Position numbers and translations under genes: made by a program. Below the pieces are notes generated by a model. The model was not told where the DNA came from. It saw only the letters and a list, made by a program, of their open reading frames with translations, and searched no databases. Positions 1 through 25,697 of a stretch of 39,261 bases of DNA are shown piece after piece. Source of the DNA: an uncultured Clostridia bacterium (GTDB taxonomy: Bacteria; Bacillota; Clostridia; Christensenellales; CAG-138); contig CAMPAN010000008.1 of the NCBI GenBank assembly GCA_946631895.1, positions 1-39,261 of the forward strand, read 5' to 3'. Positions within the stretch are counted from its first letter, which is position 1. The number at the start of each line of letters is the position of its first letter.

Positions 1-1260
1 GCATGGGTCGTTGAAAACATGTATTTCAACGTCTTCATCTATCACATGTTCAAAGCATCGCCCGAACAGATCGCGCTGATGGTACAGGCAAGCGCCATCG
101 CCGCAACGCTGACGACGCTGTTCATCGGCGCGCTTTCCGACCGGCTCGGCAAACGCAAGGCGTTCATCACCATCGGCTATATCCTTTGGGGCGTTTCGAT
201 CCTGTGCTTCGCCTTTTTACGCGTCGACTGGATCCGCGCGCTGCTGCCCTCAGGGACGCAGGATGAGGCAGAGATCGCCGCAAAGGCCGCTTCGATCGGC
301 GTGACGCTCGTGATCGTGTTCGACTGCATCATGACCTTCTTCGGCTCGACCGCCAACGATGCCTGCTTCAATGCGTGGCTCACGGACAGCACGGATGAAA
401 CGAACCGCGGCAAGGCCGAAGGCCTGAACGCCATGATGCCGCTCGTCGCGATCCTCGTTGTGTTCGGCGGTACGATGTGGGCCAAACACGAAAACGCGCA
501 GCATTGGACTGTGATCTATCTGATCCTCGGCGGGATTGTGATCGTTGCCGGTATCCTCGGCTTTTTCCTGATCGACGAAAGCGCGAAGCCCGAAAAGCAG
601 ACCGAAGGCTATTTCGCCACGCTGTTTTACGGATTCCGGCCGCGCGTGATCCGCAACAACGCGAATCTGTATCTTTCTCTGCTCGGCTTCACGATTTTCG
701 GCATTTCGATCCAGGTCTTCATGCCGTATCTGATCCTCTACTATACCGTCACGCTCGGGCTCGACAACTACGTCCTGATCATGGCGCCGGCGATCCTGTT
801 GGCGGCCGTCGCGACCGCATTCTACGGGCGGCTCTATGACCGGATCGGCTACGGAAAATCGTTGATCCCGGCGCTGTGCGTGCTGCTGCTTGGCTATACG
901 ATCCTGTTCCTGTTCAAAAGCACGGCGCTTGTGTTTATCGGCTCGCTTCTGATGATGTGCGGATATCTTTGCGGCATGGCCGTTTTCGGCGCACGCATTC
1001 GCGACTGCACGCCCATGGGCATGGCGGGGCGCTTCCAGGGTCTCCGCATCATCGGCCAGGTGCTGATTCCCGGCGTGATTGGGCCGGAGATCGGCAAGCT
1101 CGTTCTGCGGAACGCGGAGGTATATATCAACGAGGACAAAACGCAATCGTTTATTCCGAACGCGAACATCTTTTTATGGGCGGGGATCGTGCTGTTGCCG
1201 ATTGCGATCGTGATCCTTTGCGAGCGGCTCCGCGCCCGAAAGGAAGCGCAGCATGCTTAA
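1..1260 (+). CDS. MFS transporter, glycoside/sugar type (5' end truncated by the window)
   Basis: ORF 19..1260; frame stays open upstream to base 1 (AWVVEN-MYFN). Multi-TM protein with MFS loop motif GALSDRLGKRKAF; overlaps the start of a GH2 gene. Confidence 0.8.
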   Translation, partial: AWVVENMYFNVFIYHMFKASPEQIALMVQASAIAATLTTLFIGALSDRLGKRKAFITIGYILWGVSILCFAFLRVDWIRALLPSGTQDEAEIAAKAASIGVTLVIVFDCIMTFFGSTANDACFNAWLTDSTDETNRGKAEGLNAMMPLVAILVVFGGTMWAKHENAQHWTVIYLILGGIVIVAGILGFFLIDESAKPEKQTEGYFATLFYGFRPRVIRNNANLYLSLLGFTIFGISIQVFMPYLILYYTVTLGLDNYVLIMAPAILLAAVATAFYGRLYDRIGYGKSLIPALCVLLLGYTILFLFKSTALVFIGSLLMMCGYLCGMAVFGARIRDCTPMGMAGRFQGLRIIGQVLIPGVIGPEIGKLVLRNAEVYINEDKTQSFIPNANIFLWAGIVLLPIAIVILCERLRARKEAQHA

Positions 1261-2899
1261 CGCCTATCCGCGTCCGCAGATGCGGCGCCTTAGCTTTATA
1301 AACCTCAACGGGACGTGGGATTTCGCCGTTACCGACGGCGGACTTCCTGCGTCCTTTTCCGAAACGATCAACGTCCCCTATCCGCCGGAATCTCCGCTTT
1401 CGGGAATCGGACGCCGGATCGGTTCAGGGGAAACAATGCGATACAGACGGTTGTTCGACTGCCCGAAACATGAGAAACAGGAGCGCGTGATCCTTCATTT
1501 CGGCGCAGTCGATCAGATTGCAGAAGTTTTTCTGAACGGCACGCTTCTCGGACGGCACGCAGGCGGATATCTTCCGTTTTCGTTTGATATTTCAGATTTT
1601 CTGTCAGAGAAAAACGAGCTGATTGTAAACGCGACCGATACGATCGACCATGCGTATCCGTGGGGAAAGCAAAAAGCGAAAAACGGAGGTATGTGGTACA
1701 CGCCGTTTTCCGGAATCTGGCAAACGGTCTGGATGGAAGTCGTTCCGTCTGATTACGTAACCGGTTTGAAGATCGTACCGATGCTTGAATCCGTAACCGT
1801 TTCCGTGGAAACCAATCATCCGTTTTCCAACGCTTCTCTTGAAATCATAACGCCTGGTGGTCCGATCCGCGTTGAAATGCCGGAACCGACCGTTACGGTA
1901 CGGATTGACGATCCGCTTCTGTGGACGCCTGAAACGCCGTATTTATACCGTTATGTCTTACGGTACGGCAATGACACGATACAATCTTATTTTGCCTTGA
2001 GAACGGTCTCAGAGGGTGAAATCAACGGAGTCCCCCGTCTCCTTCTGAATGGCAAGCCGTATTTCTTCCACGGACTGTTGGATCAGGGCTACTGGCCGGA
2101 TGGATTATGTCTGCCTCCTGACGATACAGGATATGAACGAGATATCCTGACGGCAAAGGAGAACGGCTTCAATATGCTCCGGAAGCATATCCGGATTGAA
2201 CCGCTGCCGTTTTACGAGGCGTGCGATCGCCTCGGCATGTTGGTCCTGCAGGATTTTGTCAACAACGGAGACTATCGGTTCTGTCATGATACCGTACTGC
2301 CGACGATCGGATTCAAACGACTTTGTGATCGCATGACCAACAGAGACGAACGCACGAGACGGATCTTTACGGAGACGGCAAAGGAAACAATCCGGCATCT
2401 GTTCAATACGCCGTGTATCGCCGGATGGACAGTCTTTAACGAGGGCTGGGGGCAATTCTGTGCAGATGAACAGTATCGTGTGCTGAAGCCGCTTGATCCG
2501 ACACGGTTCTTTGACACAACCTCCGGATGGTTTCGCAGAAAAGAAAGCGATGTGCAGAGCGAGCATGTGTATTTCAGACAATTCAAGCCGAAATTCGGCA
2601 GGAAGCCCTGTCTGCTTTCCGAATTCGGCGGATACGTTTGTACGGATGATTCCGGAAAGAAATACGGATACCGGTTCTTTCGGGATCTGCAAACGTATCG
2701 GAAAGCGCTTTCGGATCTGTATACAAATCAGATCCTCCCTGCTATTCCGAAAGGACTTTGCGGTGCAGTTTATACGCAGCTGAGCGACGTCGAAGCGGAG
2801 AAAAACGGTATCATGAGCTATGATCGGACGACGGTAAAAACCGATCCGGTGCGTATGCGGGAGATCGCAGTTCTGCTGTCGGATGAAATCCGGAAATAA
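1253..2899 (+). CDS. Glycoside hydrolase family 2 protein (beta-galactosidase/beta-glucuronidase-like)
   Basis: GH2 N-terminal motifs (LNGTWDF; AEVFLNGTLLGRHAGGYLPFSFDIS), acid/base region GWTVFNEGWGQF, nucleophile region LLSEFGGY. Start overlaps the MFS stop. Confidence 0.9.
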   Translation: MLNAYPRPQMRRLSFINLNGTWDFAVTDGGLPASFSETINVPYPPESPLSGIGRRIGSGETMRYRRLFDCPKHEKQERVILHFGAVDQIAEVFLNGTLLGRHAGGYLPFSFDISDFLSEKNELIVNATDTIDHAYPWGKQKAKNGGMWYTPFSGIWQTVWMEVVPSDYVTGLKIVPMLESVTVSVETNHPFSNASLEIITPGGPIRVEMPEPTVTVRIDDPLLWTPETPYLYRYVLRYGNDTIQSYFALRTVSEGEINGVPRLLLNGKPYFFHGLLDQGYWPDGLCLPPDDTGYERDILTAKENGFNMLRKHIRIEPLPFYEACDRLGMLVLQDFVNNGDYRFCHDTVLPTIGFKRLCDRMTNRDERTRRIFTETAKETIRHLFNTPCIAGWTVFNEGWGQFCADEQYRVLKPLDPTRFFDTTSGWFRRKESDVQSEHVYFRQFKPKFGRKPCLLSEFGGYVCTDDSGKKYGYRFFRDLQTYRKALSDLYTNQILPAIPKGLCGAVYTQLSDVEAEKNGIMSYDRTTVKTDPVRMREIAVLLSDEIRK

Positions 2900-17935: not shown

Positions 17936-20173
17936 ATGTTTGCAGAAGTGATCGTAGATATCGCGCATACCGCCGTGGATCGAAGATTCACCTATCGCAT
18001 TCCCGAGGAGCTTCCCATCGCCGTCGGACACCATGTTCTGGTTCCGTTCGGTATGGGCAATCACGCGAAGGAAGGCTTTGTTGTTGCGCTCAAAGAGACA
18101 ACCGATTATCCGGAAACGAAAGAGATCGTCAAAATCATCGAACGTTATCCAGTACTGCTGCCCGAACAGATCGCGCTTGCGGAATGGATGAAAAAGTCCT
18201 ACCATTGTCTGTTCGTTGACGCTCTGAGAATCATGATTCCGGCGCAGATGCGCGGCATGCGGATCAAAGAGAAAAAGGTCCGTACCGTTGCGCTTGCCGA
18301 GAATATTGATCCGGATGCTGTTATCGAAAGCCTTGAACGAGCACCTGTACAAAAGCGCGTATTCGAGCTTGCGGCAAGGATCGGCGCAGAAGTCTCCGTT
18401 TCCGATCTCAACGTATTTTATCCGGGCTGTACCTCCGCTGTCGAAGCGCTGATTCGCAAAGGAATTCTGATCGAGCAATCCGAGACCGTTTTCAGGCGCC
18501 CGTCAAAACTGAAAATCCATACGCCGGAATACACGCTGACAGACGCGCAATCGCATGCCGCAGACAGGATCCGCGCCGCGTCGGAACGGGGAAACGGAGA
18601 CGTTTTGCTGTTGCACGGCGTAACCGGAAGCGGCAAAACGGAAGTATATCTGAAAGCAATCGAAGACTGTCTGTCAATCGGCAGACAGGCGATCGTGCTG
18701 GTTCCGGAAATCTCGCTGACGCCGCAAACGGTCGGCAGATTCACCGACCGGTTCGGCGATCGAATTGCGGTCCTGCACAGCCGGCTTTCCGCGGGAGAGC
18801 GCTTTGATGAATGGCGCAGAATCCGTCTCGGAATTGCCGATATCGTGATCGGCGCAAGGAGCGCGATCTTTGCGCCGCTGGAACGGCTCGGACTGGTCAT
18901 CATCGACGAAGAGCACGAGGCGAGCTATCAAAGCGAATCGCAGCCGCGCTATCTTGCGACCGAGATTGCCGCGAAGCGGGTAAAAACCGTCGGCGGCGTG
19001 CTGGTGCTCGGAAGCGCAACGCCTTCGCTGATGAGCTATACGCGCGCGTTATCCGGCAAATATGAGCTTCTTGAACTTCCGGATCGTGTCGCCGGAAGAC
19101 CGCTGCCGACCGTTGAAATCGTAAACATGCGCGACGAGCTGCTGATGGGCAACAACAGCATCTTTTCCGACAAGCTCACAGAACGACTTTCCGAATGTCT
19201 TGCTTCGGATCAGCAGGCTATGCTCTTCATCAATCGCCGCGGATATGCTACGTTTGTCAGCTGCCGCAGCTGCGGTTACGTCCTGAAATGCGACAACTGC
19301 GACATTTCCATGACGTATCACAAAACCGAAGCACGCACGCGCTGCCATTATTGCGGCGCAGTGAAGTCGCTTCCGAAGGAGTGTCCGAACTGCAAGAAAG
19401 CGTTCATCAAGCAATTCGGGATCGGAACCGAGCAGGTCGAAGAAGCGGTCCACCGTCTGTTCCCCGCCGTCAAAACGCTTCGCATGGACACCGACACCAT
19501 GCGCGACAAAGGCAGCTATGAGAAACTCCTGTCCGCATTCCATCGGCGCGAAGCGCAGGTTCTGATCGGAACGCAGATGATCGCCAAGGGACATGATTTT
19601 CCGAACGTCACGCTTGTCGGCGTCGTTGCTGCCGACACGACGCTGAATCTGCCGGACTATCGTGCGCCGGAGCGAACGTTTCAGCTGCTGACGCAGGTTG
19701 CGGGACGTGCCGGAAGAGACCATCTGCCGGGACACGTCGTGCTTCAAACCTATGAGCCGAATCATCCGATCATCCGGTTTGCGAAGGATCAGGATTACAA
19801 GAGCTTTTACCACTATGAGATCATGGAGCGGAAAAAGCTCCTCTATCCCCCGTTCTCTCTGTTCGTGCGGATCGTTTTTGCCGACCGTGACGAGCGTACA
19901 GCGGAACATGCATGCCTTGATTATGCCAAGCGGTTGGAAATCGAAATCAGGAGCATTCTCGGAGAAGAAGGCAAACAGGATCTTTTGCTGCTTGTCGCCG
20001 CGGAAGCGCCGGTTGCTCGGATATCCGGATTCAGCCGCTATCAGATTCTGATCAAGCTGCTGCGAACGAAGCGACTCAAAAATGCAATCGGAGCGATTAC
20101 AGCGTTTCACGATCTGCATCGCGACGTTTGTTCGGAAGTACAGCTTGAGATCAATCCTCAGGAGATGTTTTAA
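17936..20173 (+). CDS. priA: Primosomal replication restart helicase PriA
   Basis: LLHGVTGSGKTEVYLKAI, DEEHEASYQSE, zinc motifs CRSCGYVLKCDNCDISMTYHKTEARTRCHYCGAVKSLPKECPNC, GTQMIAKGHDFPNVTLVGV. Confidence 0.96.
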   Translation: MFAEVIVDIAHTAVDRRFTYRIPEELPIAVGHHVLVPFGMGNHAKEGFVVALKETTDYPETKEIVKIIERYPVLLPEQIALAEWMKKSYHCLFVDALRIMIPAQMRGMRIKEKKVRTVALAENIDPDAVIESLERAPVQKRVFELAARIGAEVSVSDLNVFYPGCTSAVEALIRKGILIEQSETVFRRPSKLKIHTPEYTLTDAQSHAADRIRAASERGNGDVLLLHGVTGSGKTEVYLKAIEDCLSIGRQAIVLVPEISLTPQTVGRFTDRFGDRIAVLHSRLSAGERFDEWRRIRLGIADIVIGARSAIFAPLERLGLVIIDEEHEASYQSESQPRYLATEIAAKRVKTVGGVLVLGSATPSLMSYTRALSGKYELLELPDRVAGRPLPTVEIVNMRDELLMGNNSIFSDKLTERLSECLASDQQAMLFINRRGYATFVSCRSCGYVLKCDNCDISMTYHKTEARTRCHYCGAVKSLPKECPNCKKAFIKQFGIGTEQVEEAVHRLFPAVKTLRMDTDTMRDKGSYEKLLSAFHRREAQVLIGTQMIAKGHDFPNVTLVGVVAADTTLNLPDYRAPERTFQLLTQVAGRAGRDHLPGHVVLQTYEPNHPIIRFAKDQDYKSFYHYEIMERKKLLYPPFSLFVRIVFADRDERTAEHACLDYAKRLEIEIRSILGEEGKQDLLLLVAAEAPVARISGFSRYQILIKLLRTKRLKNAIGAITAFHDLHRDVCSEVQLEINPQEMF

Positions 20174-21987
20174 TGAAAAAAGATCGATATAAACCTCTGT
20201 TTTTACCTGCGCTGAAGGGAGCAAGCGGTCATTTTCTGATTGCCGCGGTCGAAGTCGTATTCGGCATCGTTTCCCTTTACTGCGCATCCATTGTTACAAG
20301 CTACACACTTGACTGGGTTCTGCTCGGAAAAGATCCTTCGATTCCGGAACCATTGTTCAATTGGCTCAAATCTCTCGGACCGATTGCAAGGAACTACTGG
20401 CTTTGCGGCACGTTCTTCTTCCTGTTTACCGTACTGGAGGGTCTGTTCATCTTTCTTCGCAGAAAGAATATTGCCAAAGGTGCGGAACACATGGCGAAAA
20501 CGATGCGCGACAAACTGTATCGCAAACTGAACGCGGTTCCGTACGATTATCACAAGCATGTTTCGACGGGCGATCTCGTGCAGCGGTGCACCTCCGACGT
20601 CGATACCGTACGCCAGTTTGTGACGAATCAGCTGATGGAAATCGTCCGGATCGTCGTCATGTTCGGTATCGCGGCGGCATTGATGTTTGCAATCCGTTGG
20701 GAAATGGCGCTGATCTCTATGGCGGTTATGCCGATACTGACCGTTTCCAGTTTCCTCTATTTCCGGTATGTCCGCAAGTACTTCACCGATTCTGACGAGG
20801 CGGAAGGCGCGCTTTCGACCGCCGTGCAGGAAAACCTCACCGGCGTACGCGTAGTGCGCGCATTCGGTCAGCAGCGTGCGGAATATGATAAATTCACAAA
20901 GCTGAATCGTGATTACAGCAATAAGGTCGTCCGTCTTGTGCACTTGCTCGGCTTTTACTGGGGCACTTCGGACGCGATCGGATACATTCAGATCGCGCTG
21001 TCCCTTGTGTTCGGTATCTTCTTCTACGTGAAGACAAGAGCAAACGCCGATCCGTTTTCACTCGGCGATATCTATCTCTTTTTGTCGCTGACGAGCCGTC
21101 TCACGTGGCCGGTCCGTCAGCTCGGCAGAGTGCTTGCGGATATGGGCAAAGCAACGGTGTCGCTCGACCGTCTCAATGAGATTATGAACGCCGAAGATGA
21201 AACCGAACCGGGTAAAGCAATTTCCGATTGTGATCTGAACGGCGATATTGCGTTCTCGCATGTCAGTTTCGGATACGATACGCCGAATGACGTTCTGGAC
21301 GACATCAGTTTCACGGCGAAAGCCGGTCAGACGGTCGGCATCCTCGGAAGCACCGGAAGCGGCAAGAGCTCAATGGTACAGCTTCTGCAGCGTCTCTATA
21401 CCGTCACCGACGGTGAGATTACCATCAACAGAACGCCGATCAACGATATTGACCATGCAGCGCTTCGAAAGAACATCGCGATCGTTTTACAGGAACCGTT
21501 CCTGTATTCACGTTCGATCCGCGAAAACATTATGCTGACTGCGCCAGAAGCAACCGAAGCGGAGCTGTTCGAGGCGGCGCGGGAAGCTGCCGTCCATGAC
21601 GTGATCGAGAAATTTGCAGACGGGTACGACACGGTTGTAGGCGAGCGCGGCGTCACGCTTTCCGGCGGTCAGCAGCAGCGCGTTGCGATTGCACGCGCAT
21701 TGATGCAGAAAGCGCCGATCATGATCTTTGACGATTCCATGAGCGCTGTCGACACTGAAACCGACGCAAAAATCCGTGAAGCATTGCGCAGACATCACGG
21801 CAGCGGGATCCTGTTTATCATTTCGCACCGTATTACGACGCTGTGCGAGGCGGATCAGATTCTTGTGCTTGATCACGGAAAACTGGTACAAAACGGAACC
21901 CACGACGAGCTGATCCGTGAAGAGGGTCTGTACCGGCGGATCGCAATGATTCAGGACTTCCGGATGAAAGGAGGTGAACAGGCATGA
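20173..21987 (+). CDS. Heterodimeric ABC exporter, half-transporter A (degenerate Walker B)
   Basis: 6-TM type I exporter fold; Walker A GSTGSGKSS, signature LSGGQQQR, Walker B IMIFDDSMSAVDTETD (Asp in place of catalytic Glu), H-loop ISHR. TAATG overlap with priA. Confidence 0.93.
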   Translation: MKKDRYKPLFLPALKGASGHFLIAAVEVVFGIVSLYCASIVTSYTLDWVLLGKDPSIPEPLFNWLKSLGPIARNYWLCGTFFFLFTVLEGLFIFLRRKNIAKGAEHMAKTMRDKLYRKLNAVPYDYHKHVSTGDLVQRCTSDVDTVRQFVTNQLMEIVRIVVMFGIAAALMFAIRWEMALISMAVMPILTVSSFLYFRYVRKYFTDSDEAEGALSTAVQENLTGVRVVRAFGQQRAEYDKFTKLNRDYSNKVVRLVHLLGFYWGTSDAIGYIQIALSLVFGIFFYVKTRANADPFSLGDIYLFLSLTSRLTWPVRQLGRVLADMGKATVSLDRLNEIMNAEDETEPGKAISDCDLNGDIAFSHVSFGYDTPNDVLDDISFTAKAGQTVGILGSTGSGKSSMVQLLQRLYTVTDGEITINRTPINDIDHAALRKNIAIVLQEPFLYSRSIRENIMLTAPEATEAELFEAAREAAVHDVIEKFADGYDTVVGERGVTLSGGQQQRVAIARALMQKAPIMIFDDSMSAVDTETDAKIREALRRHHGSGILFIISHRITTLCEADQILVLDHGKLVQNGTHDELIREEGLYRRIAMIQDFRMKGGEQA

Positions 21988-23849
21988 GTTACGACAATGA
22001 AGCGGAATTCAATCAGGAAGAAAAAGTCGACGTCAAGCTGTGGAAACGGCTGTTCGGCTATGCAATGCGGAACCGTGCTTTGTTTGTCCGTATCCTCGTA
22101 ACGATGTTGATCGTTGCGATCATTGATGCGGTTTACCCCATCCTCACCCGGTTTGCGATCGACCGTTTTGTGCGTCCGGGAGGCGATCCCGATATGCACG
22201 GCATCTGGCTGTTCTTTGCAATCTACGTTGCGCTTGTCATCCTGCAGGGGTTCGGTACCACAAGGTTTATCGGTCGTTCCGGTGAGATGGAAATGGCGAT
22301 CTCTTATGCGATCCGGCAGGAAGCGTATCTGAAACTGCAGACGCTGTCGTTCTCGTTTTACGACAAGACATCTGCGGGTTATCTGATGGCTCGCATGGTC
22401 AGCGACGTCGCTCGCTTGTCCGACATGATCGCATGGAGCATCACGGACTTCCTTTGGTGCGGATTCTACATCCTGTTTTCGTTCGGCGCGATGTTCTGGT
22501 TCAACTGGAAGCTGGCACTGATCGTGATGGCGGTCATTCCCCCGCTTGCAGTCGTCAGCCTGTATATCCAGAAAAAGATCCTTCGTTATCAGCGCATCGC
22601 GAGAAAACACAACTCCCGCATCACAAGCGCGTTCAACGAAGGCATCATGGGCGCGATGACGACCAAAACCCTGGTTCGTGAAGAACAGAACGCAGCGGAA
22701 TTTGAGTCGATCACGGCGGATATGCGAAAAGCAAGCGTCAAGGCGTCCGTTTTGTCCGCAACCTTCTTTCCGCTCGTCGTATCGCTCGGCGCGGTCGGAA
22801 CAGCGCTTGCACTGGTATTCGGCGGCGCAGGCGTCAAGGCAACGCTCGGCGGAACGGAAACGTTTCTCGGCGTCATCACAGCCGGTACGCTCGTATCGTT
22901 TATCAATTATGCGTCGAGCCTGTTCGATCCGATCCAGCAGCTTGCAGGCATCTTTGCCGATATGCAGAGCGCACAGGCGAGCGCGGAACGTGTCCTTTCC
23001 CTGCTTGATACCGAATCCGACGTAAAGGATTCCAAAGAAGCGGAAGAAAAATACGGCACTTCTATGGATCCGAAACGCGAGAACTGGGAACCGATCGAAG
23101 GAGATATCGTTTTCGATCATGTGGATTTCTATTACAAGGAATCCGAACCGCTTCTGAGGGACTTCAATCTGCATATTCACGCCGGTGAAACGATCGCGCT
23201 TGTCGGTGAAACCGGTGCCGGAAAGAGTACGATCGTAAACCTCATATGCCGCTTCTACGAGCCGAAAAACGGCCGTATTCTGGTAGACGGTAAGGATTAT
23301 CGTGAACGGTCGCAGCTGTGGCTGCAATCGTCTCTCGGTTACGTTCTTCAGCAGCCGCATCTGTTTTCGGGTACGATCCGAGACAACATTCGTTTCGGAC
23401 GTCCCGATGCGGACGAAGAAAGCGTCAGACGCGCTGCGGCTATGGTTCACGCAGATTCTTTCATCGAACGGCAGCAGAAAGGATATGATACCGAAGTCGG
23501 CGAAGGCGGCGTGCGTCTTTCCACCGGTCAGAAGCAGCTGATCTCCTTTGCACGCGTAATTCTCGCAAATCCACAGATCTTCGTGCTGGACGAAGCGACG
23601 AGTTCTATCGACACGGAAACCGAACAGTTGATCCAGAGCGCAATCACCGAGGTGTTGAAAGATCGTACCAGCATCGTTGTGGCACACCGGCTCAGTACGA
23701 TCCGAAACGCAGATCGCATCCTGGTCATTCGCGACGGAGCGATTGTCGAGGAAGGCAATCACGAAACATTGCTGCAGAAAGGCGGCTACTATCACGACCT
23801 CTACATGCATCAGTATGAAGATGATGCAATGCAGGAAGCATTGAAATAA
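21984..23849 (+). CDS. Heterodimeric ABC exporter, half-transporter B (canonical Walker B, LSTGQ signature)
   Basis: Walker A GETGAGKSTI, signature LSTGQKQL, Walker B IFVLDEATSSIDTETE, H-loop VAHR; ATGA overlap with half-transporter A. Confidence 0.93.
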   Translation: MSYDNEAEFNQEEKVDVKLWKRLFGYAMRNRALFVRILVTMLIVAIIDAVYPILTRFAIDRFVRPGGDPDMHGIWLFFAIYVALVILQGFGTTRFIGRSGEMEMAISYAIRQEAYLKLQTLSFSFYDKTSAGYLMARMVSDVARLSDMIAWSITDFLWCGFYILFSFGAMFWFNWKLALIVMAVIPPLAVVSLYIQKKILRYQRIARKHNSRITSAFNEGIMGAMTTKTLVREEQNAAEFESITADMRKASVKASVLSATFFPLVVSLGAVGTALALVFGGAGVKATLGGTETFLGVITAGTLVSFINYASSLFDPIQQLAGIFADMQSAQASAERVLSLLDTESDVKDSKEAEEKYGTSMDPKRENWEPIEGDIVFDHVDFYYKESEPLLRDFNLHIHAGETIALVGETGAGKSTIVNLICRFYEPKNGRILVDGKDYRERSQLWLQSSLGYVLQQPHLFSGTIRDNIRFGRPDADEESVRRAAAMVHADSFIERQQKGYDTEVGEGGVRLSTGQKQLISFARVILANPQIFVLDEATSSIDTETEQLIQSAITEVLKDRTSIVVAHRLSTIRNADRILVIRDGAIVEEGNHETLLQKGGYYHDLYMHQYEDDAMQEALK

Positions 23850-23904: not shown

Positions 23905-24978
23905 TTACAGATACTTGACCTGTACGGCGCCGAAGTTGACGTCAGCGCGGATGATGATCGTCTGCGTCGCGTTCGGATCCGGGTCGCCGGTCACACTGAA
24001 CGCCGCGAACGAGGTATCGGACGACTTCACCATACTGACGCTGCGCGGCAGCAGGATCGTGATGTTGCCGAAGCTCGCGTCGACCTTCAAAAGACAGTTC
24101 TGCGCAAACGTGACGACATTCGTAAGATCGACGGTATAATCGCCGAAGCTCGAATCGATGTCCCCGCCGACAAGCAGGTCGCGGTCATAGACGATCGTGC
24201 TGTTTCCGAAATGCATATCCGCTTTCAGATAGTCGTTGTCGTCCGTATATTCCATTTTCGAGTGACGGCTCTTCTCGGTGTAAACGCCGTTCCGATCCGC
24301 ACAGCAGCGCTTGCGGCGGAAGAACGATTTGTTGAGAATGACGGAGACCAGCCATGCGATCGCAAAGATGAGCAGGATCACATACCACGCGATCTCAGGC
24401 AGTTTGCAGACCTGATACCCGATCAGGATGCGGCGAACGAATTCATAGCTTCCCAAGACCATCATCGCAACACCCATCGTGATGCTCGAACGAACGCTGA
24501 TCAGGCCGAAGGTGAATACAAGCAGCGGCCATACGTAGTTCCATCCGTTCAGAATGATGTCCGGATACTTTTCAATCGGCGAGTACGGGAACATGCCCGC
24601 CCAGCTGTGCAGCAGGAAAAACAGACAAACGAGGATCGCACCGATGCAGAAAGCGATAGTCGACCATTGACCGTTGTGTTTGTTCCATTCCCAGCTGAAG
24701 CTCCCTTTGCCCTGCTTTTCATCTTTCGGAACCTCATCCTTATCCAATATAATAACGTGCGGTTCGACCGGCTTGACGCCGAGCAGTTCGTCCACCGATA
24801 CGTCGAACAGATCCGCGAGCAGCGGCAGAAGCGTGATGTCCGGGCAGCTGATGTCGTTTTCCCATTTACTGACCGCCTGCGCGGAGACGCCGACCTTTTC
24901 GGCAAGCTGTTCCTGTGTGAGTCCTTTTTCTTTTCTTAATGCGGCAATCCGTTTGCCTAGCGTTTCTTTTTGTTCCAT
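23905..24978 (-). CDS. Membrane-anchored XRE/HTH_3 regulator with multi-TM region and C-terminal toastrack/LiaF-like repeat domain
   Basis: HTH: LGKRIAALRKEKGLTQEQLAEKVGVSAQAVSKWENDISCPDITLLPLLADLFDVSVDELLG. Hydrophobic segments STIAFCIGAILVCLFFLL, VWPLLVFTFGLISV, IAWYVILLIFAIAWLVSVIL. C-terminal repeats DMHFGNSTIVY, DSSFGDYTVDL, DASFGNITILL, DVNFGAVQVKY. Confidence 0.88.
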   Translation of the reverse strand: MEQKETLGKRIAALRKEKGLTQEQLAEKVGVSAQAVSKWENDISCPDITLLPLLADLFDVSVDELLGVKPVEPHVIILDKDEVPKDEKQGKGSFSWEWNKHNGQWSTIAFCIGAILVCLFFLLHSWAGMFPYSPIEKYPDIILNGWNYVWPLLVFTFGLISVRSSITMGVAMMVLGSYEFVRRILIGYQVCKLPEIAWYVILLIFAIAWLVSVILNKSFFRRKRCCADRNGVYTEKSRHSKMEYTDDNDYLKADMHFGNSTIVYDRDLLVGGDIDSSFGDYTVDLTNVVTFAQNCLLKVDASFGNITILLPRSVSMVKSSDTSFAAFSVTGDPDPNATQTIIIRADVNFGAVQVKYL

Positions 24979-25033
24979 GTTTGTTTTCCTCCTTGTTTCG
25001 ATGACCGAATCATATCAACTTTATCCCCAAATT

Positions 25034-25061
25034 ACCATACACCTGTGGTTGAATTTGTCAA
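25034..25061 (-). promoter_or_regulatory. Candidate promoter of the membrane XRE regulator
   Basis: Minus strand TTGACA-N16-TATGGT (-35 at 25056-25061, -10 at 25034-25039), about 55 bp upstream of the ATG at 24978; the spacer contains one GGTTGA/TCAACC site. Confidence 0.6.
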
Positions 25062-25153
25062 ATCTCAACTACCATATCGGTTGAATCGTGAAAAACAACT
25101 CTCTATAACCGGTTGAGACGTTCGTTTTTTCTCTCTACTTACGGTTGAAATGT
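25047..25153. repeat. Four GGTTGA(A/G) motifs at exact 32 bp period (candidate operator array)
   Basis: Motif starts 25047, 25079, 25111, 25143: GGTTGAATTTGT, GGTTGAATCGTG, GGTTGAGACGTT, GGTTGAAATGTC; flanks are mostly not conserved. Confidence 0.8.
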
Positions 25154-25182: not shown

Positions 25183-25211
25183 TTTACAAAGGTCAATAAA
25201 AAATGTATAAT
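25183..25211 (+). promoter_or_regulatory. Promoter for def-fmt-rsmB...
   Basis: TTTACA-N17-TATAAT, 24 bp upstream of the def start at 25236. Confidence 0.75.
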
Positions 25212-25235: not shown

Positions 25236-25697
25236 ATGGCTTTACGAATCATACGCAAAAATGAAGATCCTGCGCTGTACAAACCGTGCAAGGAAGTTAA
25301 AAAGTTCGACGCCCGTCTTTCCGAGCTGATCGACGATATGATCGAAACGATGAACGACGCGGACGGCGTCGGTCTGGCCGCGCCGCAGGTGGGCGTCCTT
25401 CGCCGCGTTTGCGTGATCGACATCGGAGAAGGTCCCGTGGAACTGGTCAATCCCGTGATACTGGATTCTTCCGGCGAACAGGGCGGCATGGAAGGCTGCC
25501 TGTCCTTCCCCGGGGAAAGCGGATATGTCGTGCGTCCGAATTGGGTGAAACTCGAAGCATATGATCGGAATGGCGATCTTTACGAATACGAAGGCGAAGG
25601 TCTGTTTGCACGTGCTGTGTTTCACGAAACCGACCATCTGGACGGAAAAGTCTATAAGCGCCTTGTAACGGAACCGCCTGCAGATTTTAAGGAGTAA
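25236..25697 (+). CDS. def: Peptide deformylase
   Basis: GVGLAAPQVG, EGCLSFPG, HETDHLDG motifs; start at 25236 behind GGAGG at 25225 (the ORF-track start 25203 lies inside the promoter). Confidence 0.96.
   Translation: MALRIIRKNEDPALYKPCKEVKKFDARLSELIDDMIETMNDADGVGLAAPQVGVLRRVCVIDIGEGPVELVNPVILDSSGEQGGMEGCLSFPGESGYVVRPNWVKLEAYDRNGDLYEYEGEGLFARAVFHETDHLDGKVYKRLVTEPPADFKE

Follow-up and report, generated by a model that had tools for sequence, protein, structure and literature searches.

The regulator gene and the box array

The window, by which we mean the whole stretch of 39,261 nucleotides analysed here, is contig C8 of an incomplete genome of an uncultured Clostridia bacterium (1.73 Mb, 63% complete). 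A 258-bp intergenic region within it lies between def, encoding peptide deformylase, and a divergent gene encoding an XRE-type regulator with predicted membrane helices, and contains four GGTTGA boxes (Table 1). On re-reading the sequence we confirm both the four start positions given by the initial annotation and the exact 32-bp steps between them. This run is the only case in the 39-kb window of any 6-mer occurring in at least four equally spaced copies, and in 3000 dinucleotide-shuffled versions of the intergenic region we saw neither four GGTTGA nor a run of four copies. GGTTGA is not over-represented across the window (16 found vs 17 expected), so the signal resides in the phase and not in the number of boxes. 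Comparison of orthologues places the start of def after a GGAGG sequence and not at the longer ORF start at 25203.

Table 1. Features of the intergenic region and its flanking genes, in window coordinates
Feature	Position	Strand	Description
XRE regulator gene	23905–24978	−	XRE-HTH, four predicted membrane helices and LiaF-like toastrack, 357 aa; Pfam, AlphaFold2 model
Extended −10, XRE promoter	25009–25017	−	TGA-TATGAT, −10 hexamer at 25014–25009; conserved in orthologues
Weak −35-like hexamer, XRE promoter	25032–25037	−	TGGTAA; T[G/T]G conserved; assigned from the 17-nt distance to the −10
Promoter-proximal dyad, XRE gene	25038–25052	−	TCAACC-ACA-GGTGTA, genus form TCAACC-GAC-GGTCGA; match to TCAACC-N3-GGT-N26-TANNNT at 25009–25052
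Box 1	25047–25052	+	GGTTGA; right half of the promoter-proximal dyad; in register in 16 same-genus regions
Box 2	25079–25084	+	GGTTGA; in register in 16 same-genus regions
Second block before box 3	25099–25110	+	CTCTCTATAACC; genus consensus CTCTCYACNNNC; from conservation over 87 sites
Box 3	25111–25116	+	GGTTGA; in register in 16 same-genus regions
Second block before box 4	25131–25142	+	CTCTCTACTTAC; from conservation over 87 sites
Box 4	25143–25148	+	GGTTGA; in register in 16 same-genus regions
def promoter	25183–25211	+	TTTACA-N17-TATAAT; read from sequence, conserved in genus
def	25236–25697	+	peptide deformylase; Pfam Pep_deformylase, 3.5e-43

The regulator begins with an HTH domain (Pfam HTH_3, 9.8e-19) and ends with a match to Pfam LiaF-like_C (1.4e-6) that, at 28.7 bits against a cut-off of 29, is borderline by the curated score. 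In the AlphaFold2 model (mean pLDDT 71) four long helices at residues 104–126, 146–161, 166–187 and 198–222 lie between the HTH and a C-terminal beta-strand domain with pLDDT values of 74–89. Since the number of membrane helices is even, both ends of the protein would be cytoplasmic, in line with a published prediction in which Toastrack is intracellular and acts via fused or associated HTH domains (PMC11237479). Around the recognition helix, 23 orthologues belonging to seven genera all carry the identical sequence QAVSKWEND. A fold search of the regulator returned a convincing match for the HTH only, with SinR and ImmR as the closest solved folds (E 8.4e-4 and 1.8e-4).

Conservation of boxes, dyads and spacing

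We compared the region with 61 relatives, 23 of them from the same genus, all represented by incomplete MAGs. The pattern GGTTGA-N26-GGTTGA is present in 19 of the 23 same-genus genomes, mostly as two to three successive pairs and mostly adjoining the orthologue of the XRE gene, whereas outside the genus there are four single matches, and the reversed control pattern gave two matches among all 61 relatives. The initial annotation had asked whether box and phase persist in related genomes while the spacers drift, and they do: in 16 same-genus regions aligned in register, pairwise identity is 98% in the boxes and 42% in the mid-spacers, and mean information falls from 1.86 bits per box position to 1.21 in the 12 nt before boxes 2–4 and 0.62 in the mid-spacer.

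Position-wise conservation over 87 sites gives the consensus C(−12)-T-C-T-(C/A)-(C/T)-A-C-n-n-n-C-GGTTGA-(A/G)-T-(C/T)-G. It contains a second conserved block, CTCT(C/A)(C/T)AC (CTCTCYAC), located 5–12 nt ahead of the next box, which had been overlooked and which is poorly kept ahead of box 2 in the genome of the window. The earlier statement that the intervening bases are largely unconserved therefore holds for the mid-spacers but not for this block, while the GT..GTTTT described as common to copies 3 and 4 dissolves into a mild T-rich preference over the same 87 sites.

Read as a dyad, which had likewise escaped notice, the left block gives TCYACN-NNC-GGTTGA, an imperfect form of TCAACC-N3-GGTTGA. 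The perfect dyad is found in 9 of the 61 relatives. Four other genera have it some 90–145 bp ahead of the XRE orthologue; another three copies adjoin XRE paralogues, including an XRE-TPR gene. With up to one mismatch allowed, the upstream regions of 29 orthologues from outside the genus contain 23 dyads, where shuffled sequence would yield 0.017. In the genus itself the dyad at box 1 is near-perfect. Sites with dyad symmetry that lie close to an XRE promoter and recur with the orthologues are what characterizes an XRE-family operator. Inside the array units, however, no single axis stands out (1.42 for axis −2, 1.57 for axis +4), and the left halves of boxes 2–4 are degenerate, keeping one to four of the six dyad positions in the window; both points weaken the reading as operators. 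We favor axis −2 because of the perfect dyads in other genera.

The distances between sites vary in a restricted manner. In a sub-clade of the genus (G002, G005, G019 and G021; G018 by eye) one step is 22 bp instead of 32 bp, and the intervals between neighbouring dyads of other genera are mostly 20, 22, 24, 32, 42 or 52 bp. Genus g13 has a single dyad, starting 69–70 nt before the −10, which is the second slot of the array in the window (38 + 32). Phase coherence at 10.5 bp is R = 0.66, and of 20,000 spacing sets drawn at random 44 scored as high, although this statistic is only indicative as the lineages are not fully independent. These distances are indicative of spacing that shifts between lineages by about whole helical turns (20–24, 32, 42, 52), and together with the drifting spacers they support the earlier proposal that the boxes lie on one face of the DNA. 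Evolution has in this sense performed a helical-phase experiment, in which boxes are kept, spacers drift and distances appear to jump by about one turn. One genome placed in genus g9 (G073) carries 32-bp arrays and a regulator 60% identical to that of the window, possibly through transfer or contamination of that genome.

A promoter layout common to regulator and exporter genes

Read along the XRE gene's strand, each of the 16 orthologous regions has the proximal box TCAACC-N3-GGTYGA, then exactly 23 nt, then a TANNNT −10. All 16 also have T[G/T]G at the −35 position, usually with TG one base before the −10, and the −10 lies 29–31 nt from the start codon. If the −10 is placed at −12 to −7, the centre of the proximal dyad falls by arithmetic at about −43 of the inferred start. 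The initial annotation had assigned the XRE gene a different promoter on the minus strand, TTGACA-N16-TATGGT, with box 1 in its spacer. As the −10 of that promoter is not conserved in the orthologues and TGA-TATGAT is, we place box 1 directly against the −35 position of the conserved promoter. In several genomes (e.g. L004, L005, L006, L012, L016 and L018) an extra GGTTGN half-box is located exactly 19 bp before box 1, within the −35/−10 spacer of the XRE promoter, where it might be a site of negative feedback.

The composite pattern TCAACC-N3-GGT-N26-TANNNT has 30 matches in the 23 genus genomes, compared with three for the reversed pattern, and all 30 stand before genes of five classes: the XRE-toastrack gene (13 matches, two of them cut by contig ends and recognised by place), ABC exporter B (nine, including G000:C23 from the window's own genome), ABC exporter A (three), an MFS exporter (two) and a small XRE membrane protein (three, one identified from a partial frame). 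When the gap was left free over 21 values, 18 of 25 matches fell on the single gap. By eye, ABC exporter A is preceded by the same layout at G000:C84, from the window's own genome, as well as in G073. The promoters of ABC exporter A and of the MFS exporter have further boxes 32 and 64 bp upstream in several genomes; those of ABC exporter B have box 1 only, which weakens the interpretation of the array as an operator. At G000:C84 the upstream boxes of the exporter A promoter (L062, 166–243) overlap the 3′-end of a paralogous XRE gene (196–1314, minus strand), and the operator array of this exporter thus seems to lie partly inside coding sequence.

In the window itself, no composite operator-promoter was found before two ABC exporter half-transporter genes (ABC_membrane + ABC_tran; 20173–23849, plus strand). 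These genes share a few bases with one another and with priA, and they run convergently towards the regulator gene. Among 388 genomes of the class, the perfect dyad with the 23-nt rule gave three matches, about the level of chance. In one of a distant family (L300, from G387) the dyad-N23 pattern precedes an XRE gene whose recognition helix reads VQAVSKWE, a hint that operator and helix type go together. The suggestion that the toastrack regulator controls exporters is based on the composite promoter it has in common with two ABC exporters, which falls short of proof. As the motif is common to several XRE paralogues, the exporter promoters may belong to another regulator, and a share of them may belong to the paralogous XRE proteins. 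We point out that dyad-N23-TANNNT amounts to a fixed and testable promoter rule, which predicts exporter genes under such control in a lineage of uncultured Clostridia.

Proposed function and comparison with known systems

We suggest, with a probability of roughly 0.68, that the array consists of operators of the adjacent membrane-anchored XRE regulator, which would bind them as phased dimers to activate its own gene and to control exporters. Autoregulation, proposed in the initial annotation, gains support as the likely role, as the toastrack-regulator gene is accompanied by boxes or dyads in each of 10 genera, including cases without def alongside. An HTH dimer would bind each unit, a 15-bp imperfect dyad with TCAACC-N3-GGTTGA as its perfect form. 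The dimer at box 1, directly upstream of the weak −35, could aid binding of RNA polymerase in the manner of lambda cI at PRM, and boxes 2–4, each about three helical turns further upstream on the same face, would load extra dimers cooperatively, for which phased upstream boxes are well suited. Being tethered by four predicted membrane helices, the regulator could respond to an envelope or drug signal by clustering on the phased sites, and might then activate its own gene and the exporter genes with the same promoter layout. The proximal dyad is centred at about −43, adjoins a weak −35 and keeps a constant distance to the −10, which is where a class II activator such as lambda cI at PRM sits; it is for these features that we favor activation.

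The position at −43 is also compatible with repression, and the main rival explanation keeps the same operators and regulator but lets phased dimers close the regulator and exporter promoters until a membrane signal releases them. Most of the well-known relatives of HTH_3 by fold are repressors (ImmR, SinR, P22 c2), and box 1 adjoins the −35. We nevertheless consider repression rather unlikely, since the dyad lies upstream of the −35 and −10 and not on them, and since a weak −35 and a dyad-to-(−10) distance that is base-exact in four promoter types suit contact with polymerase better than occlusion. It is also doubtful, at a similar level, that the array is bound by one or more of a set of XRE paralogues, similar in their recognition helices, to which the motif would belong, and not mainly by the adjacent protein. 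The perfect dyads next to XRE-TPR and other XRE genes, the distant VQAVSKWE gene and the small XRE proteins that follow the same promoter rule would all fit this explanation, but it is the toastrack regulator that the arrays accompany in 10 genera, and in same-genus genomes they lie mostly beside it.

The boxes could instead serve the divergent def promoter, or both genes, given that box 4 is located about 35 bp upstream of the def −35. The initial annotation had raised an effect on def, which is possible, but we found no positive support for it: def has a near-consensus promoter of its own, the boxes remain beside three orthologues (G020, G028 and G033) where the neighbour is not def, the same boxes also occur before exporter genes, and the exact spacing is held relative to the −10 of the XRE gene. 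The array is thus probably not for def, and a role at its promoter appears highly improbable. Chance, a tandem-repeat relic, a CRISPR-like repeat or a plasmid-type iteron might be considered because the bare GGTTGA-N26 triplet is found in at least 118 unrelated public stretches, from GTDB genomes, and in at least 14 from viral contigs. Among the matches listed, however, the second block is present solely in the same-genus record L135, and the bare three-copy pattern therefore does not detect the system. A decaying tandem repeat would show the opposite of a short box held amid drifting spacers, and the shuffles and the arrays in same-genus genomes argue against chance; conservation refutes this whole group of explanations. 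A CRISPR array has long identical repeats and unrelated spacers, and here we find 6–8 fixed bp with a degenerate block at positions conserved across species. A transcribed RNA feature is ruled out as well, the array being situated between two outward-facing promoters.

Returning to operators of the adjacent regulator, the nearest functional analogue is BcrR, the bacitracin sensor of bcrAB in Enterococcus faecalis, a transmembrane DNA-binding protein of the one-component type, which induces the gene of an ABC transporter and for which it is stated to be an open question how a membrane-fixed regulator reaches DNA and activates transcription (PMC3968067). The likeness, an HTH and membrane helices in one chain and exporter control (predicted here), is one of function, and we do not claim membership of the BcrR family. 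BcrR is encoded beside its own transporter, whereas the system in the window combines a multi-box phased array with several exporter families and with a C-terminus that is LiaF-like. BcrR is not known to carry a toastrack. With LiaF/Toastrack of the PSP-Lia envelope stress systems the regulator has in common membrane helices followed by a LiaF-like toastrack, which here has the borderline curated score; it differs in the fusion of the DNA-binding domain into one chain, so that no LiaRS two-component step would be needed, and in a putative regulon of exporters and XRE genes. Lambda cI at OR/PRM is also an XRE-type HTH dimer that binds several operators cooperatively, three sites about 23–24 bp apart, and activates its own promoter from about −42. 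The system described here would resemble it in HTH type, in its several operators and in a self-activating proximal site, but has four sites at 32 bp (22 in other lineages), a membrane protein and predicted control of other genes. SinR and ImmR have the HTH fold but are soluble repressors with other operators.

A literature search found no paper describing this operator. We give about even odds to the wider proposal of an undescribed one-protein membrane stress system, in which an XRE-HTH fused to a LiaF-like four-helix toastrack sensor would act on face-phased arrays whose spacing evolves only in about whole turns, with a proximal site at a fixed activator position, and would control itself and several exporter families. 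At L202 (G030; 341–1378, minus strand) a perfect TCAACC-N3-GGTTGA dyad lies upstream of the gene for an XRE protein whose long C-terminus of glycine-rich repeats (GDV/GG) is toastrack- or bactofilin-like.
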